Assembly: GCA_000955795.1 (NCBI GenBank)
Contig: JYOB01000009.1
Coordinates: forward strand, 124,001 to 188,000
Origin: Burkholderiaceae bacterium 26
GTDB taxonomy: Bacteria; Pseudomonadota; Gammaproteobacteria; Burkholderiales; Burkholderiaceae
Direction: 5' to 3'
DNA: 64,000 nt
A program made the position numbers and the translations under genes. The notes beneath the pieces are model-generated. The model was not told the origin of the DNA. It searched no databases and saw only the letters and a list, made by a program, of their open reading frames with translations. How positions within the stretch are numbered: position 1 is the first letter of the stretch; each line of letters starts with the position of its first letter. Shown piece by piece: positions 514 to 34,086 of this stretch.

Positions 514-554
514 TTGTTCACGATCAAGGGAGCTTCCGAACCGTCCTCTACAGT
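514..554 (+). promoter_or_regulatory. FNR-like box and -10 upstream of the first BON gene
   Basis: TTGTTCACGATCAA at 514-527 (reverse complement TTGATCGTGAACAA) is followed after 21 nt by TACAGT at 549-554. The start codon is at 588. The spacing equals that of the other boxes listed in this window. Confidence 0.5.
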
Positions 555-587
555 GATGACAAGACACCTCGACACGCCGGACTTGCC

Positions 588-965
588 ATGATCGCTACCG
601 CCTTCGTCCACCATCAGCGCTCCAGAGCGACGCCCGCTCGGCACATCAACGAAGACGCGTTGGCGACGGCCTTTCTTCCGGATGCCAGTGCGTGTCAGCT
701 CCCTGATCCGGCGCTTGCCGTTCTGGCAAGAACGGCCGCTTCCTGGTTTGCCCCAGCGTTGGCCACCGCAATCCATCTCAGCGCGGAGCATGGGCGCATT
801 CGCGTTGCCGGCCACGTCAGCAATGCCCGCCCGCTGGCCTACCTGAAGATTGCACTGCTGCGCTTGCCCGGCGTCGTCGGGCTGGACATGACGGTTACGG
901 TGGAAGCCACCACCGATCCGCTGCAAGCGGACTACGTGGCCCTGCAACGTCACCACGTCGGATAA
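588..965 (+). CDS. small BON-domain-like protein
   Basis: A 125-residue protein starting at ATG 588, chosen because it lies just downstream of a well-formed promoter (549-554) and because residues before it look like non-coding read-through. Residues ~68-115 (AIHLSAEHGRIRVAGHVSNARPLAYLKIALLRLPGVVGLDMTVTVE) have the alternating pattern of a BON domain: a short strand with a central V.G.V turn, a helix, then a hydrophobic strand. BON domains bind lipid or other ligands in envelope and osmotic-stress proteins. There is no signal peptide, so the protein is probably cytosolic. Two much clearer three-BON proteins occur at 27126 and 28789, which supports the family call. Exact function is unknown. 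Confidence 0.6.
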   Translation: MIATAFVHHQRSRATPARHINEDALATAFLPDASACQLPDPALAVLARTAASWFAPALATAIHLSAEHGRIRVAGHVSNARPLAYLKIALLRLPGVVGLDMTVTVEATTDPLQADYVALQRHHVG

Positions 966-981
966 CCGGGGGCTCGCAAGC

Positions 982-1365
982 ATGCATACGACATATTTCT
1001 GCGCGACCAGTTGTCCGTGCCCCCATGCCGCCTTCGATCCGACATGTCCGCAGTCGGTGGAGGAGATTCTCCGCGCGTATGCCGCGCTTTTCTGGTTCAA
1101 CCTCTACCTCAGGTGCCCCGACTTCTCTGCCACCGATGGCATGTTTCCACGAGAGCCGGAGGCTCGCCGCAGATATCTGGCGGTGCATTCGAAAGTCTTC
1201 ACACACTGGGCCACGGCGGCCAATCGTATGGGCATCACCACCGCGCGTTTTCGTGATGTCTGCGCGAACGTGCGCGCAGCTTGGATTGGACCGGACGACC
1301 CTTTGCGCGCGTGCCGCTCCCGGGCCGATGTCCTGTCGGACCATCCAGAATTGGATTTGGATTAA
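982..1365 (+). CDS. hypothetical protein with Cys-rich N-terminus
   Basis: A 127-residue protein, 16 bp after the BON-like gene and probably in the same transcript. The N-terminus carries five cysteines in a short stretch (CATSCPCP and DPTCPQS) and an aromatic segment AYAALFWFNLYLRCPD that might be a short amphipathic helix. The rest is charged and helical (EPEARRRYLAVHSKVFTHWATAANRMGI). I do not recognise a family. The cysteine cluster could bind metal or sense redox, but no standard CXXC pair spacing is present, so this is speculation. Codon use matches the neighbours, so I believe it is a real gene. Confidence 0.55.
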   Translation: MHTTYFCATSCPCPHAAFDPTCPQSVEEILRAYAALFWFNLYLRCPDFSATDGMFPREPEARRRYLAVHSKVFTHWATAANRMGITTARFRDVCANVRAAWIGPDDPLRACRSRADVLSDHPELDLD

Positions 1366-1496
1366 GCACCGGGCCGCCTTCTCACCAAGTGCAATGAGGG
1401 GCGCATCGCCATCTGACGGACGTCTTTTGGCCCAGGCAGCTAACAGCCTCACGATAGCCGCCCAATCAGGGGCGTACGGCAAGCCGATCTGGCGGC

Positions 1497-1537
1497 TTGC
1501 GTCAGGTCAAGTCTGGCAATGGCGAACTGCCTACCCT
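1497..1537 (+). promoter_or_regulatory. FNR-like box and -10 upstream of phasin 1
   Basis: TTGCGTCAGGTCAA at 1497-1510 (reverse complement TTGACCTGACGCAA), 21 nt, then TACCCT at 1532-1537. The start codon is at 1563, giving a short leader. Confidence 0.6.
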
Positions 1538-1562
1538 GCAGTCATATCAACCGGAGATCGTG

Positions 1563-2015
1563 ATGCCACAGCCTACTGATGCAGTCTGCAATCTCGCCTG
1601 CGCCACCATGCGCGATGCCAGCCGCGCAGCCGAGTTCTTCGTCGATAGTCAGCTTCAGCTCGCGCGCCTTCGCGTCAAGATGGCGGAAACGGCGCTGCAG
1701 AATCTGTCCCAGTTGGAGGGCCAGTTGGACGCAGTCAAAGATTGGAGCACGCTGGCCTCGGCACAAAGCGCCTATATGAAGCTCCAAGCCAGCCAAAGCG
1801 CAAACGCAGCTCGCCAGTGGGCCGATCTCCTCAATGACGCTCAGCGCTCTTATCTGCGCCAGGCGACAGCGTGGAACGATCAGTTCCAACATCGGCCGGG
1901 CACTGCTGCATCTCCTGCACAACTGTTGATGGCGTCCTTGGACTCTTGGCAAACATTGGTCAACACGTTCAAGGTGATAGCCGCATCGGCCACGCAAGGC
2001 CGGGCGCCGTCATAA
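1563..2015 (+). CDS. phasin-family protein
   Basis: A 150-residue protein. The ATG at 1563 follows GGAG with normal spacing. It is almost entirely helical and amphipathic (NLACATMRDASRAAEFFVDSQLQLARLRVKMAETALQ; ASAQSAYMKLQASQSANAARQWADLL), typical of the Phasin_2 family. Phasins coat polyhydroxyalkanoate granules and control their size and number; several also act as chaperones. A clear paralog lies at 14364-14852, sharing the NLACA.MR start and the W(S/T).LA.AQS..MK.Q.S..ANA core. Its upstream FNR-like box suggests induction at low oxygen, when PHB serves as an electron and carbon sink. A PhaB-like reductase at 10204 fits this. Confidence 0.85.
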   Translation: MPQPTDAVCNLACATMRDASRAAEFFVDSQLQLARLRVKMAETALQNLSQLEGQLDAVKDWSTLASAQSAYMKLQASQSANAARQWADLLNDAQRSYLRQATAWNDQFQHRPGTAASPAQLLMASLDSWQTLVNTFKVIAASATQGRAPS

Positions 2016-2249
2016 CCGCACACGAGGCCCAAGAGCGCGCAAGGCGCGTGACGGCTCTCAGGCGGAATGGCTAGCGATTGCCGAACAGCATGTGCAATGC
2101 ATGGCCTCGACGAAAGAGAAGAGCTTGATTCCTGTCAACGAGGATGTTTGGCAGCTACCTATTCTTAAAGTAGCCATCGGACAACACACAGTGGATGGAA
2201 ACGATTGTTGATTCAGCGGTTGAACTTGATTTGTTTGCAGGAGCAAAAA

Positions 2250-2681: not shown

Positions 2682-2733
2682 AAGCAACTGGTATTGCCTT
2701 GTCGCATTCCATCTGTCGGCGTAGCTGCCACCT

Positions 2734-7795: not shown

Positions 7796-7836
7796 ACGAT
7801 ACGGCCGCGCGCGTTGGCCGGGTTGATCTCGCGCAA
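7796..7836 (-). promoter_or_regulatory. FNR-like box and -10 for the rhomboid operon
   Basis: TTGATCTCGCGCAA at 7823-7836 (read leftward TTGCGCGAGATCAA), 21 nt, then TATCGT at 7801-7796 on the minus strand; start codon at 7772. The same hexamer occurs at the same spacing in front of the ABC exporter operon at 23884. Confidence 0.65.
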
Positions 7837-7882: not shown

Positions 7883-7896
7883 TTGATGTGCCGCAA
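7883..7896. promoter_or_regulatory. second FNR-like box in the rhomboid/polX divergent region
   Basis: TTGATGTGCCGCAA. Rightward, the hexamer at +21 is AACCAT (7918-7923), a weak -10, with polX starting at 7953. It could serve polX or be an upstream site for the leftward operon. Confidence 0.45.
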
Positions 7897-7952
7897 GGCC
7901 CCGGTATGGCCAGATGGAACCATGGAGCTACGTGCACGCGAGAGGATGACCC

Positions 7953-9701
7953 ATGCCATTGGCCGCTTCTTATCAGTACCCCGCGAACCAGGCCATCGCT
8001 GCGATCTTCAACGAAATCGCTGATTTATTAGAGGTTGAGGAGGCCAACCCTTTTCGGGTACGTGCTTACCGCAATGCTGCCCGCATGGTCGAAGGCATGA
8101 CGGAAGGCGTTGACGCCATGCTGGCACGCGGCGCCGACTTGACCGTCTTGCCGGGTGTTGGGGTGGACCTCGCGGCCAAGATGCGCGAGATCGTCGAAAC
8201 GGGAACCTGCGCCATGCTCACACGTGTGCGTACGGAGGTGCCATCGTACGTGCTTCAACTGCTTCAATTGCCTGGGCTGGGCCCAAAGCGGGCCCGTGCT
8301 CTGCAGCACGAGCTGGGCATCACATCGTTGGATGAGTTGGCTCGGGCAGCAGTGGCGCACCGCATTCGCGAGCTGCATGGCTTCGGCCCCCGAAGCGAAG
8401 AGCGATTGATCGAGGCACTCAACGCACGCCTGGCGCGCGATCGCCGTTATGGTTTGGCAATTGCCAAGCCGTGCGCCGACGCATTGACGCATTACCTGCT
8501 GGCAAGCGGCCTAGTCGACCAACTCGTCGTTGCCGGCAGCTACCGGCGGGGGCGAGACACCGTGGGGGATCTGGATCTGCTCATCACGGGAAGAAAACGC
8601 GCCCAGATCGTGGAGCATTTCGTGCACTACAACGAGGTCGCTACCCGAATCTCAGCGGGGCCCACCCGCGCAAGCGTCGTCCTGAAAAACGGCATGCAGG
8701 TGGACTTGCGCGTGGTGCGTTCCGACGCTTTCGGCGCGGCGCTGGTGTATTTCACCGGATCGAAGCCGCATAACATCGCACTGCGCAAGCTTGCGCAGGC
8801 CCAGGGTCTGAAGATCAACGAATACGGTGTTTTCCGAGGAAAGGCGCGCATCGCCGGCCAGACGGAAGCATCGGTCTACCGTGCAGTGGGCTTGCCTTGG
8901 ATCTGTCCGGAGCTGCGTGAAGACCAAGCAGAGATCGCGGCCGCGCAGTCCGGCTCACTACCATCCCTCGTTGAACAGAGCGACATCAAGGGGGATCTCC
9001 ATACCCACACATCCGCCAGCGATGGCACCGCCAGCCTCGAAGCCATGGCGGCGCAGGCGCGCCTGCTGGGCTATCAATACCTGGCGGTGACCGACCATTC
9101 GCCACGCATTGGCGTAACACATGGGCTTACGGCGGACCGCCTGGCAGCACAAGCCGATGCCATTGACCGTTTCAACGCTGAACACGAGGGTTGGCCGATG
9201 CTGCTCAAAGGTGTTGAAGTCGACATCCTGGAGGATGGATCACTGGACCTGCAGGATTCGGTGCTCGGGCGCCTGGATCTTGTCGTGGGCGCAATTCATA
9301 GCCACTTCAGCCTGCCGGCCGACCAACAGACGTCGCGCATTCTTCGTGCGCTCGATCATCCGCACTTCACCATCCTCGCCCACCCGCTGGGCCGCCTGAT
9401 CGGCGAGCGCAACGCCTGCAACGTTGACCTCAAGCGGATCCTGACCGCCATTGCACAGCGCGGCTGCTACGTTGAGGCCAATGCCCAGCCCTCCCGCCTG
9501 GACCTGTCCGACAGTGGATGTCGCCTGGCCAAGGCCGAAGGTGTGCTTGTGAGCATTGCGTCCGACGCGCACAGCCCGGCCGATCTGACGAACATGCCCC
9601 TGGGTGTCACGCAAGCCCGCCGCGCTTGGCTGGAGCAAGCAGACGTACTCAATGCACACTCGCTCGACACGCTGCTTCCGTTGTTGAAGCGGACCATGTG
9701 A
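7953..9701 (+). CDS. polX: DNA polymerase/3'-5' exonuclease PolX
   Basis: A 582-residue family X polymerase with a fused PHP domain, the usual bacterial PolX size (~570-580). The N-terminal 8-kDa-like domain and helix-hairpin-helix segments (VLPGVGVDLAAKM; LPGLGPKRARAL; LHGFGPRSEERL) bind DNA. The palm carries GSYRRGRDTVGDLDLLIT with the catalytic DxD aspartates. The C-terminal PHP domain (GDLHTHTSASDGT, VTDHSP, HSHFS, SDAHSP) holds the metal ligands for 3'-5' exonuclease and AP-site processing. PolX fills short gaps in base-excision repair. It stands alone rightward; an FNR-like box 57 bp upstream may place it in the island's regulon, consistent with DNA maintenance in non-growing cells. Confidence 0.95.
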   Translation: MPLAASYQYPANQAIAAIFNEIADLLEVEEANPFRVRAYRNAARMVEGMTEGVDAMLARGADLTVLPGVGVDLAAKMREIVETGTCAMLTRVRTEVPSYVLQLLQLPGLGPKRARALQHELGITSLDELARAAVAHRIRELHGFGPRSEERLIEALNARLARDRRYGLAIAKPCADALTHYLLASGLVDQLVVAGSYRRGRDTVGDLDLLITGRKRAQIVEHFVHYNEVATRISAGPTRASVVLKNGMQVDLRVVRSDAFGAALVYFTGSKPHNIALRKLAQAQGLKINEYGVFRGKARIAGQTEASVYRAVGLPWICPELREDQAEIAAAQSGSLPSLVEQSDIKGDLHTHTSASDGTASLEAMAAQARLLGYQYLAVTDHSPRIGVTHGLTADRLAAQADAIDRFNAEHEGWPMLLKGVEVDILEDGSLDLQDSVLGRLDLVVGAIHSHFSLPADQQTSRILRALDHPHFTILAHPLGRLIGERNACNVDLKRILTAIAQRGCYVEANAQPSRLDLSDSGCRLAKAEGVLVSIASDAHSPADLTNMPLGVTQARRAWLEQADVLNAHSLDTLLPLLKRTM

Positions 9702-9773: not shown

Positions 9774-9814
9774 TTGATCCGAGTCAAGGTGCCGGAAATC
9801 GAGCGATCAAGAAT
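9774..9814 (+). promoter_or_regulatory. FNR-like box and -10 upstream of the hibernation factor
   Basis: TTGATCCGAGTCAA at 9774-9787 (one mismatch to TTGATN4ATCAA), 21 nt, then AAGAAT at 9809-9814. The implied transcript start (~9821) falls on an upstream in-frame ATG, which argues for translation from ATG 9863. Confidence 0.6.
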
Positions 9815-9862: not shown

Positions 9863-10180
9863 ATGAGCGTCCCAGTCGATATTTCTTTCCAGGGCATTCC
9901 GCATTCCAAGGCCGTCGAAGAAGCGGTGATCAACCATGCAGACCGCTTGGAGCGTATTCGCGCCGATCTGATGCGCTGCCGCGTCAGCCTTGCCGTGGGC
10001 GCCAAGCACCAGCACCAGGGCAAGCCGTTCGACGTCAACGTCCAGGTGTTCACACCGCATCAGACGCATGTTTCGAGCAATACGTCCAACGAGGATCCAT
10101 ACGTCGCGCTTCACGAGGCCTTCTCGCACGTGGAACGCATGCTCGTGGAAGCCAATGGCAAACGAGAATCACACTCTTGA
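9863..10180 (+). CDS. ribosome hibernation factor of the HPF/RaiA family
   Basis: A 105-residue protein. ATG 9863 has GGAG nearby, while ATG 9821 would coincide with the predicted transcript start. It shows the beta-alpha-beta-beta-beta-alpha pattern of the S30AE/HPF family: VDISFQGIPHSKAVEEAVINHADRLERI, CRVSLAVGAKHQHQGKPFDVNVQVF, then DPYVALHEAFSHVERMLVE. The family binds the decoding channel of the 30S subunit, stabilising inactive 70S or 100S ribosomes during starvation or anoxia. Length is that of short HPF/RaiA; there is no long-HPF C-terminal domain. A second, housekeeping hpf near rpoN is expected elsewhere. Its box suggests FNR-driven induction at low oxygen. Confidence 0.85.
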   Translation: MSVPVDISFQGIPHSKAVEEAVINHADRLERIRADLMRCRVSLAVGAKHQHQGKPFDVNVQVFTPHQTHVSSNTSNEDPYVALHEAFSHVERMLVEANGKRESHS

Positions 10181-10950: not shown

Positions 10951-10957
10951 GACGGCC

Positions 10958-12176: not shown

Positions 12177-12500
12177 CTAGGCGGCGATGATCACCTTGAG
12201 TGCCTGCGTCTTTGCGGCGTTGCGGAGGGTGTCGTAGGCGGCGAGGATGTCATCGAGCCTGAACCGGAGCGTAAGTGAGGTTACGGCCGCGCCGACGGAC
12301 TCCACCACGCCCACACCTTGCTGTCCCAGCGTGCGCCCCGGCTCGCAGGTCGGCACGTCGCCCTTGATGATGTGCAGGTCGGTACCGCAAATGGTCGTCA
12401 ACGTGACGCGCACTACCGCGTCGCCGGGTGCCTGCAATTCCGGTTTCGGCTTGTCGGCCAGGGTGACCTTGCCAGGCCCTTCGTAGACGAGTGCTTTCAT
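12177..12500 (-). pseudogene. internally deleted zinc alcohol dehydrogenase
   Basis: A 107-codon open frame starting at ATG 12500. Residues 1-~76 match the N-terminus of a Zn-dependent alcohol dehydrogenase (MKALVYEGPGKVTLADKPKPEL, CGTDLHIIKGDVPTCEPGR, GVGVVESVGAAVTSL). It then jumps directly to the last ~30 residues of the same family (FRLDDILAAYDTLRNAAKTQALKVIIAA). About 240 residues, comprising the structural zinc site and the whole NAD-binding domain, are missing, yet the frame is kept. It cannot be an active dehydrogenase. It still has an FNR-like promoter and leads the operon into the nitroreductase gene, so it may survive as a leader. A full-length relative is at 33039-34049. Confidence 0.85.
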
Positions 12501-12528: not shown

Positions 12529-12596
12529 ATGCTAGGCAACCGCCCTGCGCGGACGTTGATCTACGTCAGGGCGCACGGCAGCAACCGCGCGATATT
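12529..12596. promoter_or_regulatory. divergent FNR-like operator with -10 elements on both sides
   Basis: TTGATCTACGTCAG at 12556-12569. Rightward, 21 nt later, GATATT (12591-12596) precedes the kinase gene at 12628. Leftward, 21 nt later, TAGCAT (12534-12529 on the minus strand) precedes the operon starting at 12500. One box appears to serve two promoters symmetrically. Confidence 0.6.
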
Positions 12597-14258: not shown

Positions 14259-14299
14259 TTGCGCCATATCAACGCACACAACCGCAAAGTGCCTACGCT
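14259..14299 (+). promoter_or_regulatory. FNR-like box and -10 upstream of the phasin 2 operon
   Basis: TTGCGCCATATCAA at 14259-14272 (reverse complement TTGATATGGCGCAA), 21 nt, then TACGCT at 14294-14299. The same hexamer at the same distance precedes the stress protein gene at 34131. Confidence 0.65.
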
Positions 14300-14363: not shown

Positions 14364-14852
14364 ATGCAACAACCTGCTGATATGGCATGCAACCTGGCAT
14401 GCGCCGCCATGCGCGAGATGAGCCGCACCGCCAGCTTCATGCTCGAGGCGCAGATCGACCTGGCCCATTTCCGCCTCAAGCTGGCTGAGGCTGCGCTGGA
14501 AGACGTGCGTGAGCTGGAACATGAACTGAGCGGCACGCATGACTGGACATCGCTGGCCACTGCGCAAAGCATCTTCATGAAGATGCAATCAAGCCACGGC
14601 GCCAACGCTCTGAAGACGTGGGCCGAGTTCACGAACAAGCTGCAGGCCGCCTATTTTCGTCGGTTGACGGAATGGACCCAGCAGGTGCAGCAACCCGAAG
14701 GTCAAACCTCTTCTTCACAGTTGTTTGCCGCGTCCTCCGATTCGCTGAAGGCCTTCTTTGACAGCTTCAACCTCATGGCCCCGCCAGACTCCGAGGTGAA
14801 GAAGAACGGACTGGCACGCTCCACATCGGCAAGAGCTGAAAAGGCCGCCTGA
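14364..14852 (+). CDS. phasin-family protein (second copy)
   Basis: A 162-residue protein; ATG 14364 follows GGAG. Nearly all helix, with MACNLACAAMREMSRTASFMLEAQIDLAHFRLKLAEAALEDV and SLATAQSIFMKMQSSHGANALKTWAEF matching the paralog at 1563 along its whole length. The tail is longer and basic (KKNGLARSTSARAEKAA), as in phasins with an Ala/Lys-rich end that may contact DNA or granules. It should coat PHB granules. First of a rightward operon: phasin, CBS-pair protein, alpha/beta hydrolase, phosphoribosyltransferase, with gaps of 23, 35 and 4 bp. An FNR-like promoter with a 21-nt gap precedes it. Confidence 0.87.
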   Translation: MQQPADMACNLACAAMREMSRTASFMLEAQIDLAHFRLKLAEAALEDVRELEHELSGTHDWTSLATAQSIFMKMQSSHGANALKTWAEFTNKLQAAYFRRLTEWTQQVQQPEGQTSSSQLFAASSDSLKAFFDSFNLMAPPDSEVKKNGLARSTSARAEKAA

Positions 14853-14875: not shown

Positions 14876-15340
14876 ATGCGAGTTCAGGACGTCTATTCAC
14901 ACAATGCAGTACACATTCCGCTTTCCTGCACGCTTCAGGAAGCGGCACAGCAGATGCGCCAGAAGCATGTCGGTGCGCTGGTCGTGACGGAGAACACCCC
15001 TTCCGGACCCCGTGCGATCGGCATTGTCACGGATCGCGACATCGTGCTTGATGCGGTTGCGGTTGGGGTGAGCCCCTCGCAGACCTGTGTAGCCGATGTC
15101 ATGAGCCGGGGCATCTCCAACGTACCGCTCGAGGCAAGCCTGAGCGACGCGTTGCAGGAAATGCTCTCATGCGGCGTGCGGCGTGTCGGTGTGACGTCCG
15201 ATGGTGCGCTGGTCGGCGTGTTGTCTTTGGACGATGTGCTCGGCGCGATGGCCACCGAATGGAGCCTCATCGCCCGGCTCGTGCATAACGAGCGTGAGCG
15301 CGAGACGACCGGCAGCGTCCAGCCGCCGCTGAGCGTGTAA
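14876..15340 (+). CDS. CBS-pair domain protein
   Basis: A 154-residue protein; ATG 14876 follows GAGGAGG. It consists of two CBS motifs. The first is VYSHNAVHIPLSCTLQEAAQQMRQKHVGALVVTE...GIVTDRDIV; the second is VMSRGISNVPLEASLSDALQEMLSCGVRRVGVTSDGALVGVLSLDDVL. Paired CBS domains (Bateman module) bind adenosyl nucleotides such as AMP/ATP or S-adenosylmethionine and act as energy sensors. No catalytic domain is attached, so it probably regulates a partner. A close paralog is at 31141-31608, sharing the TDRD and LVG(V/M)LSLDD motifs and the following A-x-(A/G)-x-EW. Both lie next to FNR-like promoters. Confidence 0.92.
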   Translation: MRVQDVYSHNAVHIPLSCTLQEAAQQMRQKHVGALVVTENTPSGPRAIGIVTDRDIVLDAVAVGVSPSQTCVADVMSRGISNVPLEASLSDALQEMLSCGVRRVGVTSDGALVGVLSLDDVLGAMATEWSLIARLVHNERERETTGSVQPPLSV

Positions 15341-15375: not shown

Positions 15376-16059
15376 ATGAATCCCGAGCCGCTCTCTCTCA
15401 GCATGGATATCGTGGCGGACGACGCAGTGCTGGAAGGCACGTTGGACTGCCCTGGCAACGCAACCGGCCTGGTGATCTTTGCGCATGGCAGCGGCAGCTC
15501 GCGGCTCAGTCCGCGCAATCGATACGTTGCGGATCAGCTCCACGCCGCCGGCCTGGGCACGCTGCTGTTTGATCTGTTGAGCGCCGAAGAGGCGTCACAC
15601 GCGTCGTACCGGTTCGATATCGACCTTCTGGCACGGCGCCTGCAGACAGCCACACGCGCGGTCGGCAGCATCGCCCGCGAACGCAAATTGCGCCTCGGCT
15701 ACTTCGGCGCAAGTACAGGCGCCGCAGCCGCGATCCTGGCGGCGGCCGAACAGGACGACGCCTGCCCGATCGAAGCGGTCGTCAGCCGTGGCGGCCGTCC
15801 GGATCTTGCCGGCCAACGTGCGCTGAGCAAACTCGCCTGCCCGACCCTGCTGATCGTTGGCGCGGCCGATTTGGACGTGCTCGATCTCAACCGGCAGGCC
15901 CTGAGCCAAATGCACTGCGAAAAAGCTCTGGAGACGGTACCCCACGCAACGCACCTTTTTGAAGAGGAAGGCACGCTCGAACAGGTGGCCGAGCTGGCGC
16001 GGGCGTGGTTTGCCCGCCACCTGAGTGCAACCTCCCAACCTCACCGACACGCGAGGTAG
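15376..16059 (+). CDS. alpha/beta hydrolase (dienelactone-hydrolase-like)
   Basis: A 227-residue single-domain hydrolase. The oxyanion region VIFAHGSGSSRLSPRNRYVADQL, nucleophile elbow GYFGASTGAAAA (G-A-S-T-G), a candidate acid in LLIVGAADLDVLDLN, and His in VPHATHLFEEEG make up the expected Ser-Asp-His triad. No signal peptide is visible, so it acts in the cytosol. Proteins of this type are commonly encoded next to phosphoribosyltransferases like the one 4 bp downstream, sometimes as one fused polypeptide, which suggests a shared but unknown pathway. It is third in the phasin-led operon. Confidence 0.85.
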   Translation: MNPEPLSLSMDIVADDAVLEGTLDCPGNATGLVIFAHGSGSSRLSPRNRYVADQLHAAGLGTLLFDLLSAEEASHASYRFDIDLLARRLQTATRAVGSIARERKLRLGYFGASTGAAAAILAAAEQDDACPIEAVVSRGGRPDLAGQRALSKLACPTLLIVGAADLDVLDLNRQALSQMHCEKALETVPHATHLFEEEGTLEQVAELARAWFARHLSATSQPHRHAR

Positions 16060-16063
16060 CCCC

Positions 16064-16714
16064 ATGCGATTCAAAGATCGATTGGATGCAGCGCGCATGC
16101 TCGCGCAGGCACTCGAGAAGTACAGGGACATGCACCCGCTGGTGTTGGCCATCCCAAGGGGCGCGGTTCCAATGGGCGCACTCATCGCGCACGCACTCGG
16201 CGGTCAGCTTGATGTGGTGCTGGTTCGCAAGCTCGGCGCGCCGTTCAACCCTGAACTGGCTGTCGGCTCTATAGAAGAAGGCGGCTGGACTTACTTCGCA
16301 CCCTATGCGAGCCGCATTGGCGCGGACACCACATACCTCGAACAGGAAAGCGCCGAACAGATGGACGTCATCCGCCGGCGACGTGCGCTCTATACCCCGA
16401 ACCGCGGTCCGTATGACGTAGAAGGACGCGTCGTGATCGTGGTCGACGATGGGTTGGCAACCGGAGCTTCCATGAAGGCAGCACTCCACGCCATACGACA
16501 GCGCCATCCGCAACGCCTCATCTGCGCCGTTCCCGTGGCGGCACCGGATAGCCTGGACGAAATCCGACCGCTGGCCGATGAGGTCGTCTGCCTCTACGCG
16601 CCGCAGGGCTTCCGCGCGGTCGGCTTGTATTACGCCGATTTTCCTCAGGTGGAAGACGCCGAAGTGCGTGCTGCGTTGGGCGTGGCCCCGCAAACCGAGC
16701 GCCAGACTGGCTGA
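16064..16714 (+). CDS. phosphoribosyltransferase-family protein
   Basis: A 216-residue protein; ATG 16064 has GAGG and lies 4 bp after the hydrolase stop. The type I PRTase signature VVIVVDDGLATGASMKAAL (PRPP-binding loop) is clear. AIPRGAVPMGALIAHALGGQLDVVLVRKLGAPFNPELAVGSIEEGG forms the N-terminal half with the PPi loop. The long KLGAPFNPELAVG segment is characteristic of a subgroup often fused or adjacent to an alpha/beta hydrolase. Substrate base is unknown; it is not a recognisable Apt, Hpt or PyrE. It ends 10 bp from the convergent mgtA-type gene. Confidence 0.88.
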   Translation: MRFKDRLDAARMLAQALEKYRDMHPLVLAIPRGAVPMGALIAHALGGQLDVVLVRKLGAPFNPELAVGSIEEGGWTYFAPYASRIGADTTYLEQESAEQMDVIRRRRALYTPNRGPYDVEGRVVIVVDDGLATGASMKAALHAIRQRHPQRLICAVPVAAPDSLDEIRPLADEVVCLYAPQGFRAVGLYYADFPQVEDAEVRAALGVAPQTERQTG

Positions 16715-19367: not shown

Positions 19368-19408
19368 ATTAGAGCGCAGGACGCGCGTGGGGCCTTGACG
19401 CAACTCAA
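19368..19408 (-). promoter_or_regulatory. FNR-like box and -10 for mgtA
   Basis: TTGACGCAACTCAA at 19395-19408 (leftward TTGAGTTGCGTCAA), 21 nt, then TCTAAT at 19373-19368 on the minus strand, a 5/6 match to TATAAT. The box overlaps the stop codon of the upstream outer-membrane-factor gene. Confidence 0.55.
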
Positions 19409-23883: not shown

Positions 23884-23924
23884 ACGATAGCGATTCGGGG
23901 GCCGCGGCCTTTGATGTGTCGCAA
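23884..23924 (-). promoter_or_regulatory. FNR-like box and -10 for the ABC exporter operon
   Basis: TTGATGTGTCGCAA at 23911-23924 (leftward TTGCGACACATCAA), 21 nt, then TATCGT at 23889-23884 on the minus strand. The box is one base different from the one at 7883. Confidence 0.65.
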
Positions 23925-23953: not shown

Positions 23954-24601
23954 CTACAGCGTATCGTCGTCGGAGAACAAGCGATGACGTATCGCGTACC
24001 GCACAAGGGCGGCTTCGCTTGAGAGCTGCAGCTTGTCCATCAACCGCATCTTGTAGGTGCTGATGGTCTTGGCGCTCACGCACAGGCTGGTGGCGATCTC
24101 GGTCAAGGGCTCACCCCGCACCAGCCGGCGATAGACCTCCATCTCACGGTCGGACAGGCGTGTGTGGGCCGCCTCCTCACTGGGCTCGCCAAGGCTGTGG
24201 GCAAGCTTCTCCGCCATGGGCGGGCTGACATACGTGCCGCCGGTCGCCACCTTCTGCAGCGCGGTGACCAGTTCGGTCGCAGCGCTCTCCTTCGTCAGGT
24301 AGCCGGCCGCCCCCGCACGAAAGGCGCGCGCCACGTACTGCTCTTCAGCGTGCATGGTCAGCACCAGCACGCGCACCCTGGGGTGGTCGTCGTGCAACTG
24401 GCGGAGCAGCTCCAGCCCGCTGCGCCCCGGCATTGAAAGATCCAGCACGATTACCTGCGGTTGATGGTCGCGCACCAGTTGCAGGACCTGCGTACCATCG
24501 GAAGCTTCGCATGCGACCTCAAAATCCCCTGCGCGCTCCAGGATATGACGCACACCATCGCGCATCACGGCATGATCGTCGGCGATCATCACGCGAATCA
24601 T
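23954..24601 (-). CDS. NarL/FixJ-family response regulator
   Basis: A 215-residue regulator. The receiver domain (residues 1-~120) has the acidic pair in IADDH, the phospho-acceptor Asp in VIVLDLSMPG, Thr in VLVLTMH and Lys in YLTKESA. The LuxR-type helix-turn-helix (residues ~148-205) reads LSDREMEVYRRLVRGEPLTEIATSLCVSAKTISTYKMRLMDKL. The start overlaps the histidine-kinase stop by 4 bp (ATGA), so the pair is coupled. It is an orthodox transcription activator that dimerises on phosphorylation. Targets are unknown; position between the exporter operon and fnr suggests it tunes this island. Confidence 0.93.
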   Translation of the reverse strand: MIRVMIADDHAVMRDGVRHILERAGDFEVACEASDGTQVLQLVRDHQPQVIVLDLSMPGRSGLELLRQLHDDHPRVRVLVLTMHAEEQYVARAFRAGAAGYLTKESAATELVTALQKVATGGTYVSPPMAEKLAHSLGEPSEEAAHTRLSDREMEVYRRLVRGEPLTEIATSLCVSAKTISTYKMRLMDKLQLSSEAALVRYAIRHRLFSDDDTL

Positions 24602-25986
24602 GTCCGTGCCTCCTCGGTGACTTTGTGAACGGTGGGAAAGCTTACGCTCAAGCGAAAGCCGCCGCCCGGCGCGTGTGTGATCGTTGCCTGCCCGCCCAAT
24701 AACCGGGCCCGCTCACGAATGCCAAGCAACCCCAGCGGCTTGCGTTCACCCACCGCCGGAGGTGCCCCGCTCCAGCCATGCCCATTGTCTTGAATGGACA
24801 ACTCCAGCACGTCTTCCTGCTGCGAAAACTCGATCTCAACACGCGTGGCATCGGCATGGCGCACGACATTGTTGAGCGCCTCCTGCACGATCCGAAAGAC
24901 CGAGATGGCAGCGCGCTCGTTCATTGCCAGCTCTTGAGCATGCACAGTCACGACCAGGCCAAAGCGTTGGCGAAAATTCTTGGCCATCCATTCGATGGAA
25001 GGCACCAGCCCCAGCTCGTCGAGCAACGGCGGCCGAAGATCCGCAGAAATCTGCCGCACGGCAACAATTGTCTCGTCGATCACGTGTTGCATCGCCTGGG
25101 TCTGGTCGATCAGCGTCGTGTCGCTCCGTGCTGCCTGCAGATCCGCCGCCAGCAGCGAAATGTCCATCTTGAGCGCGCTCAGACGTTGACCCAGATCGTC
25201 GTGCAGCTCACGGGCGATGCGGTGCCGCTCCTCCTCCCGCGTAGCCAGGATGCTGTCCGACAAATGCTGCAGTTCTTCCTGGGAGCGCCGCAGTGCCGCT
25301 TCCGCGCGGACGCGCTCCGTGGTGTCGCGCAGCATCACCGTGAACAGCTTGCCGCCGTTCACCTCGATTTGTGAAATCGACGCTTCGATCGGGAATTCCC
25401 GCCCGTCGGTGTGCAGGGCAAACAGCGGGCGCTGCTTACCCATCTGACGCTCCGATACGCCCGTTACCCCGAAGCGCCGCACATGGGTCTCGTGGGCACC
25501 GCGAAACCGCTCGGGAATAAAGTCTGACAGGGGGCGACCGATAGCCTGGCGAGCCGAGCAACCGAACAGTGTCTCGGCCATGGGATTGAACAACACGATG
25601 CGCTGGGCGTCATCGACGGAAATGATGGCTTCCATGGACGAGCGGATGATGCCGGCCAGCCGGGCTTCGCTCTTTTCAAGGTACGACAGGTCCCGGGCGA
25701 CGGCGGCTCGCAACTTCCGCAGCCGCAGCCAGTAGAACACCAGCGCGATGATGGCAAAAATACTTGCCGAGGCTAGCAAAATAAACGGTGCGTCCCCGGC
25801 CTGGAGTGCAAACGCCAGCCGGGCAACCGACGCGGCCAGCAGCAAAATGGCCAGTACCCCCACCACAAGTTCGGCCGAAGTGGATTGCAGCTGCAGCAGC
25901 CGCCTGTGCATTGCCTTCGAGGATTGAGTGTCTTGCTCCGCCACCAAACACCACCAAAAGGTCGGGATGCAATCAACATAGCCCAT
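24598..25986 (-). CDS. PAS-containing sensor histidine kinase (HisKA_3 type)
   Basis: A 462-residue kinase starting at ATG 25986; no good Shine-Dalgarno supports it, and GTG 25944 is an alternative. Two membrane helices lie near residues 40-85 (LVVGVLAILLLAASVARLAFAL and FILLASASIFAIIALVFYWL) with almost no periplasmic loop. A PAS domain follows (~105-215; ISVDDAQRIVLFNPMAETLFGCSARQAIG), with a Cys (FGC) but no haem or flavin motif I can assign. The dimerisation/phosphotransfer helix has EEERHRIARELHDDLGQRLSALKMDI (phospho-His in ELHDD). The ATPase has EALNNVVRHADAT, DNGHGW and LGLLGIRERARLLGG. Its partner is the overlapping NarL-type regulator. Signal unknown; a redox or membrane cue is inferred. 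Confidence 0.9.
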   Translation of the reverse strand: MGYVDCIPTFWWCLVAEQDTQSSKAMHRRLLQLQSTSAELVVGVLAILLLAASVARLAFALQAGDAPFILLASASIFAIIALVFYWLRLRKLRAAVARDLSYLEKSEARLAGIIRSSMEAIISVDDAQRIVLFNPMAETLFGCSARQAIGRPLSDFIPERFRGAHETHVRRFGVTGVSERQMGKQRPLFALHTDGREFPIEASISQIEVNGGKLFTVMLRDTTERVRAEAALRRSQEELQHLSDSILATREEERHRIARELHDDLGQRLSALKMDISLLAADLQAARSDTTLIDQTQAMQHVIDETIVAVRQISADLRPPLLDELGLVPSIEWMAKNFRQRFGLVVTVHAQELAMNERAAISVFRIVQEALNNVVRHADATRVEIEFSQQEDVLELSIQDNGHGWSGAPPAVGERKPLGLLGIRERARLLGGQATITHAPGGGFRLSVSFPTVHKVTEEART

Positions 25987-26043
25987 TCCCAAGGCTGGAG
26001 ATACTAGCCGAGTGAAGGAGAAGCCCCCCGGAAAACCCTGCCG

Positions 26044-26116: not shown

Positions 26117-26239
26117 ACGCGGCGCCTCCGATACTGAGCGTACGGACACCGGACCTTGATGGAACGCAGTGACCGGATACCCACCGCCTCGCCGAGGATG
26201 TGTGGCTCAAAGACCACAAACGCCTCCCGGAGCCGCCCC

Positions 26240-27040
26240 ATGATTCCGCGCACCATAGAGTCCCCTGCCCCCATTGAAACCCGCCATCCTGCTGCGCTTC
26301 CCCAACTCAGGCTCGTGCGCGACGCCACCCAGGCCCGGCAGACTACGCCACTGATCCCGGGCAGCCAATGTGCCAATTGCATGATGCACTGGGCCTGCAT
26401 TGCGAGCGCTGTACCATCCGCGCAACGCGAACAACTGGACCAGATGGTGCACACGTGGCGCAAGATCGCCAAGGGCGAAGCACTCTTCCGTGCGGGTGAC
26501 AACTTCCACGCGCTGTATTCCATCCGGTCTGGATCGTTCAAAACCGTGGTCTCGCACCCCAACGGCGCAAGTCACGTCACCGGATTCCAGCTGTCGGGCG
26601 AAACGCTTGGGCTCGACGGCATTGCCGCCGATCGCCACACCTGTGATGCGATTGCCCTGGAAGACAGCACGGTCTGCTCCATGCCTTTCCATTGCGTTGA
26701 GGACCTCTGCCAGGACATCCGCCCACTGCAACATCGCCTTCACCAACTGATGGCCGAAGAGATCGTGCGCGAGTCGGGCCTCATGCTGCTGCTCGCCGGG
26801 CTCAGTGCGGAAGCACGCGTTGCCACCTTCCTGCTGAACCTCTCCACACGCATGCAAGACCGCGGGTACTCCGCTTTGAGCTTCACGCTGCGCATGACGC
26901 GCGAAGAAATCGGCAGCTACCTCGGCATGCAGCTTGAGACTGTCAGCCGGGCGCTGTCGAGGTTCCAACGCGAAGGCTGGATCGTCGTGAGCGGCAAGAA
27001 CATCGAGCTGACTGACAAGGCAGCACTGACGGAGCTTTGA
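26240..27040 (+). CDS. fnr: FNR-type oxygen-sensing transcription regulator (CRP/FNR family)
   Basis: A 266-residue regulator. ATG 26240 has GGAG and gives near-normal FNR length; upstream in-frame starts add unconserved residues. The N-terminal segment QCANCMMHWAC has the CX2CX5C spacing of FNR, and a fourth Cys is available in RHTCDAIALEDSTVC, matching the ligand near FNR Cys122. Together these could hold an oxygen-labile [4Fe-4S] cluster. The cyclic-nucleotide-like barrel follows (GEALFRAGDNFHALYSIRSGSFKTVV). The helix-turn-helix TREEIGSYLGMQLETVSRALSRFQREG contains ExxSR, the FNR contact set for TTGAT half-sites. It is the obvious candidate to bind the FNR-like boxes across this island. 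A strong terminator follows. Confidence 0.92.
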   Translation: MIPRTIESPAPIETRHPAALPQLRLVRDATQARQTTPLIPGSQCANCMMHWACIASAVPSAQREQLDQMVHTWRKIAKGEALFRAGDNFHALYSIRSGSFKTVVSHPNGASHVTGFQLSGETLGLDGIAADRHTCDAIALEDSTVCSMPFHCVEDLCQDIRPLQHRLHQLMAEEIVRESGLMLLLAGLSAEARVATFLLNLSTRMQDRGYSALSFTLRMTREEIGSYLGMQLETVSRALSRFQREGWIVVSGKNIELTDKAALTEL

Positions 27041-30908: not shown

Positions 30909-30949
30909 ATGTTGGACCACCAAGCGGATCACCCCTTGATTTACATCAG
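30909..30949 (-). promoter_or_regulatory. FNR-like box and weak -10 for the stress-protein operon
   Basis: TTGATTTACATCAG at 30936-30949, one mismatch from the FNR consensus TTGATN4ATCAA. Leftward, 21 nt later, CAACAT (30914-30909) is a 3/6 -10 match. Confidence 0.6.
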
Positions 30950-30981: not shown

Positions 30982-31022
30982 TTGATCTGCCTCAAGGGCA
31001 AGCGTCCAACGCTCAATAGACT
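30982..31022 (+). promoter_or_regulatory. FNR-like box and -10 for the CBS gene
   Basis: TTGATCTGCCTCAA at 30982-30995 (one mismatch from consensus), 21 nt, then TAGACT at 31017-31022. The leader to ATG 31141 would be ~110 nt. A TATAGT at 31108-31113 may be a second, nearer promoter. Confidence 0.6.
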
Positions 31023-31140
31023 CCTTCGCTATCGGCTGCCGCCTTGTGCAGTCATGGAAAGCTCGCGGCACCTTGTGCGGGATCAACTTCTGACACCGGC
31101 CCGTTCTTATAGTGAAAACGTACGCGCATCGGAGTTCAGC

Positions 31141-31608
31141 ATGAGGGTCGACGAGATTTGCTCCCGCCGCATCGTCCACGTCCAGTCAACGGCGACGCTG
31201 CAGCAGGCCGCCCGATTGATGCGGGACGAAGGCGCTCGTGCGCTACTTGTCACGGAACGCACCGGCTGCGGAGCGCGGGTGGTCGGCATCGTGACAGACC
31301 GGGACATGGTGGTGCACGGGATAGCCAACCGCGGCGACTGCACCGAGACCGCTGTATCGGAAGTCATGACGCGCGGTCTTCTCACCATTCACGATGACGC
31401 CATGATCAGTGAAGCCTTGCGCTCGATGCTGAGCCACGGCCTGCACCGTCTGGCGGTGGTCGATCGTCAGCAACGACTGGTGGGCATGCTAAGCCTGGAC
31501 GACACCATCCGCGCAATGGGTGGCGAATGGACCTTGCTGGCCGGCATTCTCGGTCGCGACAACGCTAGCGGGTCCCGCCAGCATGCGCCGTCCGATTTGA
31601 TTCTCTAA
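31141..31608 (+). CDS. CBS-pair domain protein (second copy)
   Basis: A 155-residue protein; ATG 31141 follows GGAG at good spacing, and in-frame upstream codons lie inside the promoter region. Two CBS motifs: ICSRRIVHVQSTATLQQAARLMRDEGARALLVTE...GIVTDRDMV and VMTRGLLTIHDDAMISEALRSMLSHGLHRLAVVDRQQRLVGMLSLDDTI. It aligns end to end with the protein at 14876. The GIVTDRD and LSLDD Asp residues are where adenosyl ligands usually bind. A stand-alone energy or redox sensor is inferred. Monocistronic, divergent from the stress-protein operon, and convergent with the DUF4010 gene. Confidence 0.92.
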   Translation: MRVDEICSRRIVHVQSTATLQQAARLMRDEGARALLVTERTGCGARVVGIVTDRDMVVHGIANRGDCTETAVSEVMTRGLLTIHDDAMISEALRSMLSHGLHRLAVVDRQQRLVGMLSLDDTIRAMGGEWTLLAGILGRDNASGSRQHAPSDLIL

Positions 31609-31660
31609 GTCTTTTCCTCTGGTGACGGGTCTGATCCGCGTGTGCATTGGCCGGAATTGA

Positions 31661-32887
31661 CTAGGCGACCAACCAGAACACCGCCCAGCAGGACAAAAGC
31701 ATGGTCAGCAGACCTGCGGTGACCCTGCTGGCAAAGGCACGCCCCCCGCTGATGGCCACGACAACCTTCGAGAACGTGTTGGCCGTCAGCGCGAGCATCA
31801 CCAGCGTGCCTGCCGTAGATACCTGCAGCGTATGACCAGCAACCTGCGTTGCAATGGATGCAGTCGCGGCGTGCACATCGGCAAATGAGCCAAACACGGT
31901 GACAGCCACCACCGCTGCTGTCCCGAACCATGTGCGCGCGGCGGCGGCGGCAAGCAGCAAGGCAGCCGTCCACAGGGCAAAACCAATTGCGACACGCCAG
32001 TTGATGGATGACGCTGAACTCTCCGGCGCCTCCTGAAGTGGCTCGCTGCCACGCCACACCCACAGAGCGGACCATGCCACGGTCGCAATCATGCCGACCG
32101 CCAGCGGAGCCCCCAGCACGCGCAGAAAGTCGATGTTGATGGCGGCAATCAGCAGCAGCATCTGCACCAGCGTAGCGACGTTGGACAGCAGCGCCGCGGC
32201 AACCGCACCGTCAATGGGACGATGGTCCTTGCGGACGCGCGCTGCCATCGCTGTGATCGTCGCCACACTCGATGCAAACCCGCTGAACAGGCCTGCCAGT
32301 GGCAATCCGATGCGCTCTCCAAACCATCGCGCCGCAAAATGGCCCGTGTTGCCGGTCAGCATGACAAGCAGCACAACCAGCCACAGCGTATGCGGGTTCC
32401 AGGCGTTCAGCGGCCCTATGTTCCGGTCGGGAACCGCGGGCCAGACCAGCAATGCCGCGACGGCAAGGATCAGCAGATCGGCGAGCTCGCGCTGGGTGAT
32501 GACCGTGCGGGCGAACCGATGCAAACCCGCTTTGGCATAGAGCAGGGCGAGAAGTGCCGTACCGAGGCCAGCCGTCATTTCGGGCTCGCTCACGGCATAG
32601 GCGCCTAACAGCGTGGTGGCCAGCAATGCGAGTTCCGTCGTCACGCCGGGATCGACATTGGCCGAATGGTGATAACCCAGCGCCGCCAACACCGCGACCG
32701 CCAGCAACACGGTAGGCACGGCAAGCGGTATCGGCAGGCTTGCCGCAATGGCACCAGCCAGCGCCCCGATCGCAAACGTTCGCATGCCAGCCGGCAGTTC
32801 TGCGCTGCCGGTGTGACTACGCTCGCGCTCAAGGCCGATCGCCAGGCCCACGCCCAGGGCAACCGAAAAGGACAGCAGTGAAGTCAT
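31661..32887 (-). CDS. MgtC-like / DUF4010 multi-pass membrane protein
   Basis: A 408-residue integral membrane protein with about 12 hydrophobic segments. The N-terminal third is MgtC/SapB-like (LGVGLAIGLERERSHTGSAELPAGMRTFAIGALAGAIAA; the GLERER and R-T-x-A motifs are conserved). The C-terminal two-thirds is DUF4010 (GLPLAGLFSGFASSVATITAMAARVR and LALTANTFSKVVVAISGG). Transported substrate is unknown; MgtC relatives affect Mg2+ homeostasis and F-ATPase, which would tie in with the MgtA-type pump at 16725. An FNR-like box with AATACT at the usual spacing lies 77 bp upstream. Confidence 0.85.
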   Translation of the reverse strand: MTSLLSFSVALGVGLAIGLERERSHTGSAELPAGMRTFAIGALAGAIAASLPIPLAVPTVLLAVAVLAALGYHHSANVDPGVTTELALLATTLLGAYAVSEPEMTAGLGTALLALLYAKAGLHRFARTVITQRELADLLILAVAALLVWPAVPDRNIGPLNAWNPHTLWLVVLLVMLTGNTGHFAARWFGERIGLPLAGLFSGFASSVATITAMAARVRKDHRPIDGAVAAALLSNVATLVQMLLLIAAINIDFLRVLGAPLAVGMIATVAWSALWVWRGSEPLQEAPESSASSINWRVAIGFALWTAALLLAAAAARTWFGTAAVVAVTVFGSFADVHAATASIATQVAGHTLQVSTAGTLVMLALTANTFSKVVVAISGGRAFASRVTAGLLTMLLSCWAVFWLVA

Positions 32888-32923
32888 TCAGTGGAGCCGG
32901 ATGGCCGTTGCATTCACCCATTC

Positions 32924-32964
32924 AGTATTGTGCGCGGCAACGGCTTCCGATTGATCTGGCGCAG
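32924..32964 (-). promoter_or_regulatory. FNR-like box and -10 between the DUF4010 and alcohol dehydrogenase genes
   Basis: TTGATCTGGCGCAG at 32951-32964. Leftward, 21 nt later, AATACT (32929-32924). Rightward the best hexamer near the expected place is CATCGT (32985-32990, 20-nt gap), so it may also serve the dehydrogenase starting at 33039. Confidence 0.5.
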
Positions 32965-33038
32965 TCGATGGTCGACTGCCGGGACATCGTTTTTCAGGGC
33001 TGATCCATACTGACCAGACACGCCATACGGAGACAGCG

Positions 33039-34049
33039 ATGTCTGAATCGATGCGGGCCATGGTGATGGAAGGCGCCGGTAAGCCATTGATTTGGCGTGA
33101 AGTGCCCACGCCCAAGCCTGGGCCGGGCGAGGTCCGGATCGCGGTGTCCGCTTGTGGTGTCTGCCGTACCGACCTCCATATCGTGGACGGCGAACTGACC
33201 GCGCCGAAACCCGCCCTCATTCCTGGGCACGAAATCGTCGGCATCGTCGAGTCGTGCGGTGAAGGCGTGACGACGCCCGCCCCGGGCGAGCGCGTGGGCG
33301 TGCCATGGCTTGGCTGGACATGCGGCGTCTGCCCGTACTGCCTGCACGGCCGCGAAAACCTGTGCGACCACCCTGCCTTTACCGGATACACGCGCGACGG
33401 CGGGTATGCGCAATATGTCGTCTGCGACGCGCGATACTGCCTGCCGATTCCGGCGCGGTACGACGATGCCCACGCGGCGCCCCTGCTCTGTGCCGGCCTG
33501 ATCGGCTACCGCACGCTGCGCATGGCCGGCGACGCGCGCCGGATCGGCATCTACGGCTTTGGTGCTGCGGCCCACCTCATCACGCAAATTGCCGTGGCAG
33601 AGCAGCGCGAAGTCTTTGCCTTCACCCGGGCCGGCGACACTGCGGCTCAGCAACTTGCGCTGGACACCGGCGCCAAGTGGGCAGGCGCCAGCGACGCCGC
33701 CGCCCCCCTGCCACTCGACGCCGCGCTGATCTTCGCGCCCATCGGCGCGCTCGTGCCGCAGGCGCTGCAGGCCGTGGTCAAGGGCGGCTCGGTGGTCTGC
33801 GGTGGCATTCACATGAGCGACATCCCCACGTTTCCGTACCGGTTGCTATGGGAAGAACGCAAGCTGGTCTCGGTGGCGAACCTGACGCGGGCGGATGGGC
33901 TCGCGCTCATGCGCATCGCAGCGGAAGTCCCCTTGCAGGTTCACGTCACGCCCTACCGCCTGCAAGACGCCAACACCGCCTTGGAAGACCTCCGCGCCGG
34001 GCGGGTGGCCGGCGCAGCCGTCCTGCAGGTGTCTTCGGAAAACATTTGA
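33039..34049 (+). CDS. zinc-dependent alcohol dehydrogenase
   Basis: A 336-residue medium-chain dehydrogenase. Catalytic-zinc residues are in SACGVCRTDLH and GHEIVG. The structural-zinc lobe is CGVCPYCLHGRENLC (C-x2-C-x2-C-x7-C). The nucleotide domain has IGIYGFGAAAHLITQIA in place of the usual GxGxxG (GFGAAA), followed by VFAFTR, so cofactor preference is unclear. It is close to a family often annotated as AdhP-like or alcohol-dehydrogenase in low-oxygen clusters. It could re-oxidise NADH by reducing aldehydes when respiration is limited. Followed 81 bp later by a universal stress protein with its own FNR-like promoter. Compare the deleted relative at 12177. Confidence 0.92.
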   Translation: MSESMRAMVMEGAGKPLIWREVPTPKPGPGEVRIAVSACGVCRTDLHIVDGELTAPKPALIPGHEIVGIVESCGEGVTTPAPGERVGVPWLGWTCGVCPYCLHGRENLCDHPAFTGYTRDGGYAQYVVCDARYCLPIPARYDDAHAAPLLCAGLIGYRTLRMAGDARRIGIYGFGAAAHLITQIAVAEQREVFAFTRAGDTAAQQLALDTGAKWAGASDAAAPLPLDAALIFAPIGALVPQALQAVVKGGSVVCGGIHMSDIPTFPYRLLWEERKLVSVANLTRADGLALMRIAAEVPLQVHVTPYRLQDANTALEDLRAGRVAGAAVLQVSSENI

Positions 34050-34086
34050 CGCGTATCAACAGCCCAGGCGCCACGCTGTCTACGCT
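34046..34086 (+). promoter_or_regulatory. FNR-like box and -10 upstream of the third stress protein
   Basis: TTGACGCGTATCAA at 34046-34059 (one mismatch from consensus), 21 nt, then TACGCT at 34081-34086; start codon at 34131. The box overlaps the TGA of the dehydrogenase. Confidence 0.65.

Follow-up and report, generated by a model that had tools for sequence, protein, structure and literature searches.

Along a 64,000-nt stretch of the genome of Burkholderiaceae bacterium 26 (contig JYOB01000009.1, C44:124001-188000; source genome 5.68 Mb), hereafter called the window, 14-bp palindromes resembling the binding site of the oxygen sensor FNR recur at a constant distance from sequences resembling −10 hexamers. 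Are these fortuitous combinations or promoters and, if promoters, what would they switch on and through which regulator? A sequence-only reading of this DNA had listed about thirteen such boxes, each 21 nt ahead of a hexamer, and interpreted them as class II FNR promoters. Our comparative analysis supports that interpretation: the geometry is that of the Escherichia coli nirB and narK promoters, and box and −10 positions are conserved across Ralstonia with a free spacer sequence. We consider it very probable that the boxes are FNR sites at class II sigma-70 promoters, which would jointly switch on, in the absence of oxygen, a stress-survival island of about 50 kb similar to the low-oxygen-activated (lxa) locus of Burkholderia cenocepacia. 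Judged by protein matches, the closest relatives of the window are Ralstonia: of 11 named loci matched by the island CBS-domain protein, 10 belong to Ralstonia (including R. pickettii) and one to a Burkholderiaceae metagenome-assembled genome.

For the inventory of the window 16 promoter readings were listed; the core set comprises 15 of them, with the doubtful plus-strand reading of box 12556 set aside. All 12 boxes and 13 hexamers listed before were recovered at their coordinates, each hexamer exactly 21 nt beyond its box, and the earlier counts (T at the end in 13/13 hexamers, A at position 2 in 12/13) were reproduced. The boxes already listed are thus real, and the tally was short by three (2125, 7883 and 31073). 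Each line below gives the predicted promoter and its strand, the putative FNR box, the −10 hexamer 21 nt beyond it, the gene or open reading frame (ORF) downstream and the fraction of orthologs found in which the spacer is 21 nt.

514..554, plus strand: box 514-527, TACAGT (549-554); upstream of ORF 588-965 (125 aa, no Pfam family); 2/2.
1497..1537, plus strand: box 1497-1510 (3 mismatches), TACCCT (1532-1537); upstream of ORF 1563-2015 (150 aa, no Pfam family); 7/7.
2125..2165, plus strand: box 2125-2138, TATTCT (2160-2165); newly found; 7/7.
7796..7836, minus strand: box 7823-7836, TATCGT (7801-7796); upstream of rhomboid-family gene 7772-7179; 9/9.
7883..7923, plus strand: box 7883-7896, AACCAT (7918-7923), a poor −10; newly found, upstream of PolX-like gene 7953-9701; 6/6.
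9774..9814, plus strand: box 9774-9787, AAGAAT (9809-9814); upstream of ribosome-hibernation type (S30AE) gene 9863-10180; 7/7.
12529..12569, minus strand: box 12556-12569, TAGCAT (12534-12529); upstream of truncated ADH_N ORF 12500-12177, then SagB-type nitroreductase-like gene 12159-11473 and acetoacetyl-CoA reductase gene 11055-10204; 13/13.
12556..12596, plus strand: the same box 12556-12569 read on the opposite strand, GATATT (12591-12596), a doubtful promoter; upstream of AAA_33-domain gene, start ~12628; 21-nt spacer lost in 3/13.
14259..14299, plus strand: box 14259-14272, TACGCT (14294-14299); upstream of 14364-14852 (no family), CBS-like 14876-15340, hydrolase-like 15376-16059 and phosphoribosyltransferase 16025-16714; 13/13.
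19368..19408, minus strand: box 19395-19408, TCTAAT (19373-19368); upstream of Mg2+ P-type ATPase gene 19331-16725; 8/8.
23884..23924, minus strand: box 23911-23924, TATCGT (23889-23884); upstream of DevC/DevA/HlyD/NodT-like export genes 23829-19405; 11/11.
30909..30949, minus strand: box 30936-30949, CAACAT (30914-30909), a poor −10; upstream of two Usp genes, 30856-30356 and 30372-29476; 13/13.
30982..31022, plus strand: box 30982-30995, TAGACT (31017-31022); first tandem promoter of the CBS-domain gene; 13/13.
31073..31113, plus strand: box 31073-31086, TATAGT (31108-31113); newly found, second tandem promoter, the CBS gene start then being 31141; 14/14.
32924..32964, minus strand: box 32951-32964 (3 mismatches), AATACT (32929-32924); upstream of MgtC/DUF4010 gene 32887-31661; 10/10.
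34046..34086, plus strand: box 34046-34059, TACGCT (34081-34086); upstream of Usp gene 34131-34586; 13/13.

For 14 of the 15 core promoters, an ORF start kept in at least four relatives lies 16-58 nt beyond the predicted transcription start (start codons were picked by hand). The promoter at 30982 would lie 112 nt from the start of the CBS gene if that start is 31141. The promoter at 31073, kept in all 14 orthologs found, suggests a CBS gene start at 31141 rather than at 31054 or earlier. Service of two divergent promoters by box 12556 is possible but weak, as the plus-strand spacing is the one lost in relatives, and this arrangement was not retained.

Orthologs of the 16 readings were aligned via BLAST in the corresponding stretches of 20 relatives, which gave 2 to 14 orthologs per promoter; relatives without a match over the full 41 nt were not counted, so losses are under-reported. 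In the 139 gap-free ortholog rows (12556 plus omitted), box positions 1-3 and 12-14 were 100% conserved and −10 positions −12/−11/−7 were 99.5% conserved, as compared with 82% for the spacer. Ten rows contained indels. Three of these came from the doubtful plus-strand reading of 12556 (spacers of 12, 22, and 22 nt), and the other seven (7/7) all retain a net spacer of 21 nt. Among orthologs found over the full 41 nt, box and −10 are therefore conserved and spacer length is fixed while spacer sequence is free, which is the footprint of a class II promoter.

The boxes and their orientations had been freely chosen in the sequence-only reading, which leaves room for the view that the spacing is a coincidence, or an effect of base composition, produced by picking boxes and hexamers by eye. 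We therefore collected boxes with at most two mismatches to TTGATN4ATCAA without regard to the DNA downstream and counted TANNNT at gaps of 5-45 nt. Among 42 orientations in window positions 1-36000, TANNNT occurred at gap 21 in nine, at gaps 20, 22, and 23 in none, and once each at four other gaps; at 36001-64000, none of 26 orientations had TANNNT at any gap from 5 to 45. With the looser pattern xAxxxT, 11 of the 12 boxes listed before qualified at gap 21 when read in one direction or both, as compared with three for the best of the 40 other gaps (5-45). For core-intact boxes in 1-36000 the figure was 12/15 in either orientation, with at most four at other gaps. The 20 kb to the left of the window, which the earlier reader had not seen, behaved likewise: for 8 of 10 core-intact boxes, one of the two orientations had xAxxxT at gap 21, as compared with four boxes for the next-best gap. 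Window positions 1-36000 and left flank taken together gave TANNNT at gap 21 in 12 of 66 orientations, against a mean of 0.15 at the 40 other gaps (Poisson P ~2e-19).

The same spacing was seen in other Ralstonia. The islands of ten congeners, orthologs of the window island and hence not independent counts, yielded 408 orientations with TANNNT at gap 21 in 76, at gap 20 in one, at gap 22 in none and at other gaps in no more than six. Five more congeners gave 7, 9, 8, 3, and 0 cases at gap 21, one at gap 20 and none at gap 22 (the stretches of two of them, G001 and G007, measured 7.8 kb and 26 kb). As a control within the genome itself we used 18 stretches of 20 kb each (360 kb); two of an original 20 (L039, L048) were dropped, having been picked for strict-pattern matches, and one of those retained (L045) had been picked for an FNR paralog. 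None of the 47 core-intact boxes in the control had TANNNT at gap 21, and xAxxxT was found there in four; the other gaps averaged 3.4 and reached eight at most. Blind tests, orthologs and left flank all give gap 21, and together with the own-genome control they rule out chance or composition as an explanation, to which we assign a practically negligible probability; the spacing is, as had been claimed, far from chance, and the case for it is stronger than first put.

The sequence-only reading had proposed that a motif be built from the sites and the genome scanned, with matches compared inside and outside the island. A matrix was made from the 15 window promoters; it has gap 21 built in and is therefore uninformative on other gaps. 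All 15 promoters score at least 18.9 bits (leave-one-out 13.4-23.5), the promoter at 7883 scoring 18.9 (leave-one-out 14.8). Matches of 18.5 or more numbered seven in the 20-kb left flank vs. two in the 18 control stretches (360 kb). Across the whole genome, TTGATN4RTCAA-21-TANNNT was matched four times, once inside the window (backward control, 0), and TTGAYN4RTCAA gave 27 palindromes, three of them inside the window (backward control, 9). The 24 of these strict palindromes that lie elsewhere in the genome, read in 48 orientations, had TANNNT at gap 21 in six, at gap 22 in three and at gap 20 in one; three of the 24 lie in the left flank, with TANNNT at gap 21 in 0/3. The box-21-hexamer pattern is neither general in the genome nor confined to the island.

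All 15 promoters carry a 14-bp TTGAT-N4-ATCAA-like box with an intact core, including the two at 1497 and 32951 that have three mismatches to the full consensus. The drift of the 3′ half-site described earlier, from which a relaxed or distinct recognition by this FNR had been proposed, was a reading of the boxes on the plus strand rather than in promoter orientation. In promoter orientation, 15/15 promoters show TG (positions 2-3) and CAA (12-14), both unchanged in the 139 ortholog rows. The upstream half-sites do vary widely (TTGAT, TTGAC, TTGCG, TTGTT, TTGTG, TTGAG, CTGAT, CTGAC, CTGCG), as a relaxed FNR would allow. Yet several of 14 E. coli promoters examined also have boxes with one or two mismatches, and the island FNR matches E. 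coli FNR in its Glu/Ser/Arg contact residues. With an invariant core and E. coli-like contacts we rejected relaxed recognition as the principal explanation and regard it as quite improbable. Counted by hand, mismatches to the consensus half-sites were 19 upstream and 7 downstream in the window. A stricter promoter-proximal half-site was nevertheless rejected, because by promoter groups the ratio is 14 vs. 5 (14 groups, p=0.09); in other genera it was 28 vs. 24 (44 promoter groups, p=0.56).

Class II activation by FNR from near −41.5, and its 21-nt geometry, are known from E. coli; here the geometry is unusually uniform. According to the part of PMC3688515 that lists FNR sites, −41.5 ± 4 is the site position for 19 of the 23 activated E. 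coli promoters whose start is known, and nirB and narK are placed at −41.5. The window promoters resemble E. coli class II promoters in having the box ahead of a −10 hexamer at the 21-22 nt corresponding to a site centre near −41.5, and nirB and narK have exactly 21. We read by hand the gaps at 14 such FNR-activated genes of E. coli K-12. Gap 21 was found in three (narK, nirB, nikA), gap 22 in five (dmsA, focA, narG, fnrS, and ydhY, the last ambiguous) and neither in four (nrfA, ydfZ, grcA, pykA); two (frdA, ynjE) had no box within two mismatches. Unlike E. coli with its mixed gaps, the Ralstonia islands are without gap 22, which was absent from all 116 Ralstonia promoters.

Class II FNR promoters are also described in other bacteria. 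One has been demonstrated by reporter in the chlorate reducer Ideonella, as given in the portion of PMC7349173 on that promoter, and the account of Herbaspirillum seropedicae in the cited sections of PMC5934665 offers a further likeness: this betaproteobacterium has a class II promoter at fnr1, with the centre of the site at −42, and its Fnr1/Fnr3 regulon includes Usp targets and several FNR proteins. The Herbaspirillum regulators were assigned by chromatin immunoprecipitation sequencing and RNA sequencing (PMC5934665), the Ralstonia island by sequence alone.

By promoter groups, the window and 15 Ralstonia islands gave 14 at gap 21, none at 22 and two singletons at 20, and stretches of 12 other Burkholderiaceae genomes gave 28 at 21, 16 at 22 and one at 19. 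For gap 21 vs. 22 this difference between Ralstonia and the other Burkholderiaceae has a Fisher p=0.006, in a post hoc test on groups that are not fully independent. The test omits the two Ralstonia groups at gap 20 and the one other group at 19, as well as two stretches that belong to different families within the order (G028, with three cases at gap 22 and none at 21; G026, none); one Ralstonia group joins 12 promoters at 21 with two at 23, and the tandem promoters 30982 and 31073 are lumped. The rigid spacing claimed earlier therefore holds within Ralstonia and does not extend to class II FNR promoters generally, which use both 21 and 22. One could suppose that the geometry of the Ralstonia islands is locked at 21 nt regulon-wide and that the island FNR, or a mixed dimer, tolerates only one helical register, so that spacing and not the box sequence sets its targets apart from those of the other FNR proteins in that cell. 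We find this unlikely. Related promoters in the other Burkholderiaceae change between 21 and 22 in four of eight multi-member groups, and a spacing code between FNR paralogs was rejected as the leading explanation on that account. We take the strict 21 as a mild peculiarity of Ralstonia and not as a new mechanism.

The class II FNR promoters proposed here call for an activator, and the island encodes a candidate next to a divergent two-component pair:

26156..27040, plus strand: FNR-type regulator gene, with four cluster cysteines and E261/S264/R265 in the recognition helix; start codon uncertain.
23954-24601, minus strand: response regulator gene, divergent from the FNR gene.
24598-25992, minus strand: PAS histidine kinase gene, divergent from the FNR gene.

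The regulator has C72, C75, and C81 (C-x2-C-x5-C) and the central C174, all of the cysteines of the FNR cluster. E261, S264, and R265 occupy the three DNA-contact positions, which in E. coli FNR are Glu-209, Ser-212, and Arg-213 according to the relevant passage of PMC4505428. Residues 71-294 align with FNR structures PDB 5cvr and 5e44 (E ~1e-50) with the cysteines and E-xx-SR kept; compared with these structures, the ORF as called has ~70 extra residues ahead of the aligned part, and its start codon is uncertain. The Pfam CRP-type HTH and cNMP domains scored above their cut-offs.

Several observations weigh against FNR control of this island, or against the island FNR as its agent. Three of the 15 core-intact boxes in 1-36000 lack xAxxxT at gap 21, and some −10 hexamers (CAACAT, AACCAT) are poor. 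The island regulator reaches 212.9 bits against the NCBIfam model of the Fnr subfamily (NF008365), below the cut-off of 228, and so falls outside that NCBI subfamily. No box within two mismatches was found upstream of the island fnr or of the two-component genes (23954-25992), and a box of this kind would also be read by further members of the regulator family.

The lack of a box ahead of the island fnr bears on the possibility that these are class II FNR promoters with a different main activator. In place of the product read at 26240, this could be a mixed dimer or one of the FNR proteins encoded elsewhere in the genome (C2:198504, C33:2335, C42:59358). The genome encodes at least these three, with the same four cysteines and E-xx-SR residues. 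Box sequence cannot identify the binding protein, because cysteines and contact residues are common to at least four FNR proteins encoded here. There is also a precedent: in the Herbaspirillum sections cited above (PMC5934665), two FNR proteins co-activate promoters including those of two Usp genes, possibly as heterodimers, and the co-activated sites have an Fnr3-like upstream and an Fnr1-like downstream half-site, a direction in which the half-sites of the window promoters also lean. This lean, however, is not significant over promoter groups and is absent in other genera (the p values given above), and an ortholog of the island FNR with at least 74% identity is present in 15/15 congeners searched. 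We rate a different main activator as a serious possibility with a somewhat less than even chance; it is compatible with class II FNR promoters as such. As to the paralogs themselves, C33:2335 and C42:59358 are two very similar proteins, and a box-21-AACAAT site lies at C33:970 (24.2 bits); at C42:49358 and 49413 there are boxes pointing in either direction.

Use of the boxes by a nitric oxide-sensing DNR/NNR-type regulator or by CRP, instead of an oxygen sensor, appears very unlikely. DNR-type regulators have the same box, and several more distant CRP/FNR proteins are encoded in the genome. On the other hand, the cysteine set for a [4Fe-4S] cluster is present in the island regulator and in each of the three paralogs closest to it, and no denitrification enzyme was found among the families of the scanned proteins, a subset of the ORFs. 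The CRP core is TGTGA/TCACA, from which the TTG/CAA core of the boxes differs.

Which functions would these promoters serve? Downstream of them in the window are genes for three Usp and two CBS-type proteins, a phosphoribosyltransferase, a ribosome-hibernation type protein, a rhomboid, PolX, MgtA, an MgtC/DUF4010 protein and a DevCAB-like exporter with a NodT-type outer-membrane protein. The minus-strand promoter at 12529-12569 precedes a truncated alcohol dehydrogenase gene, behind which lie a nitroreductase-like gene and one for acetoacetyl-CoA reductase. Further cargo is encoded in the left flank: FtsH, PfkB, two proteins of the HSP20 type, a beta-CASP metallo-hydrolase and another pair of histidine kinase and response regulator. 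Several of these names rest on matches below the curated NCBIfam cut-off, and operon membership is deduced from gene order. The alcohol dehydrogenase-like gene (12177-12500, minus strand) is cut to an N-terminal ADH_N piece with a junction near 12274-12279. In the 12 relatives listed, nine have ~706-720 bp more at this junction, one (G010) also lacks it and two (G006, G014) aligned on one side only; the promoter is conserved despite the truncation.

This cargo resembles the lxa locus, which the corresponding sections of PMC6127331 and PMC4505428 describe as a 50-gene cluster, BCAM0275-BCAM0323, with Usp proteins, HSP20, a metallo-beta-lactamase, phosphofructokinase, PhbB, a nitroreductase-like protein, a Zn-alcohol dehydrogenase and FNR (BCAM0287). 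In the same portion of PMC4505428, an FNR box-like motif accompanied many micro-oxically induced genes. Compared by family name, the Ralstonia island has Usp, HSP20, PhbB, Zn-alcohol dehydrogenase, metallo-beta-lactamase, phosphofructokinase, nitroreductase, and FNR members. It differs from the B. cenocepacia locus in lying in another genus, and its MgtA, DevCAB-like exporter, PolX, rhomboid and a polysaccharide-deacetylase-like gene go beyond the lxa families named in the cited parts of PMC6127331 and PMC4505428. The locus is missing from B. cenocepacia H111, as stated in the passage concerned of PMC3759415. Among the literature matches listed, none described an lxa-like FNR island in Ralstonia; we do not claim that such a description is absent.

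We propose that, without oxygen, an FNR dimer would retain its [4Fe-4S] cluster and bind the 14-bp box, which would stand in for a −35 element. With RNA polymerase positioned at the −10 hexamer, 21 nt beyond the box, the downstream FNR subunit would contact the enzyme. Transcription would start 6-7 nt past the hexamer, so that the box would be centred between −40.5 and −41.5. The ~15 promoters of the window and several to its left would be switched on together, and with them an island of roughly 50 kb that may be the Ralstonia counterpart of the B. cenocepacia lxa locus. From the sequence alone, some 20 promoters, 15 of them in the window and seven strong ones to its left, are predicted to be under oxygen control, and a survival locus of the lxa type, which has been studied in B. 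cenocepacia, is indicated for a further genus. Many promoters of one architecture with varied half-sites and spacers, in a cell with several FNR proteins, would be a good natural set for the study of how FNR targets are divided and how strict their spacing is.

The island extends roughly 16 kb to the left of the window start, into C44:104001-124000 (L080), where the seven further strong box-21-hexamer sites lie. The second kinase and response regulator pair, in this flank (L080 13782-16263), is separate from the pair at 23954-25992; in both pairs the regulator is of LuxR type, and their presence in one island with the FNR suggests a second layer of control. To the right, G+C content falls to ~0.56 at 46001-52000, compared with 0.61-0.67 around it, and this stretch is possibly acquired DNA. 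Just right of the island, ORF 37031-42880 (1949 aa) matches the UvrA-interaction domain twice and P-loop ATPases several times and probably encodes a long UvrA-like protein.

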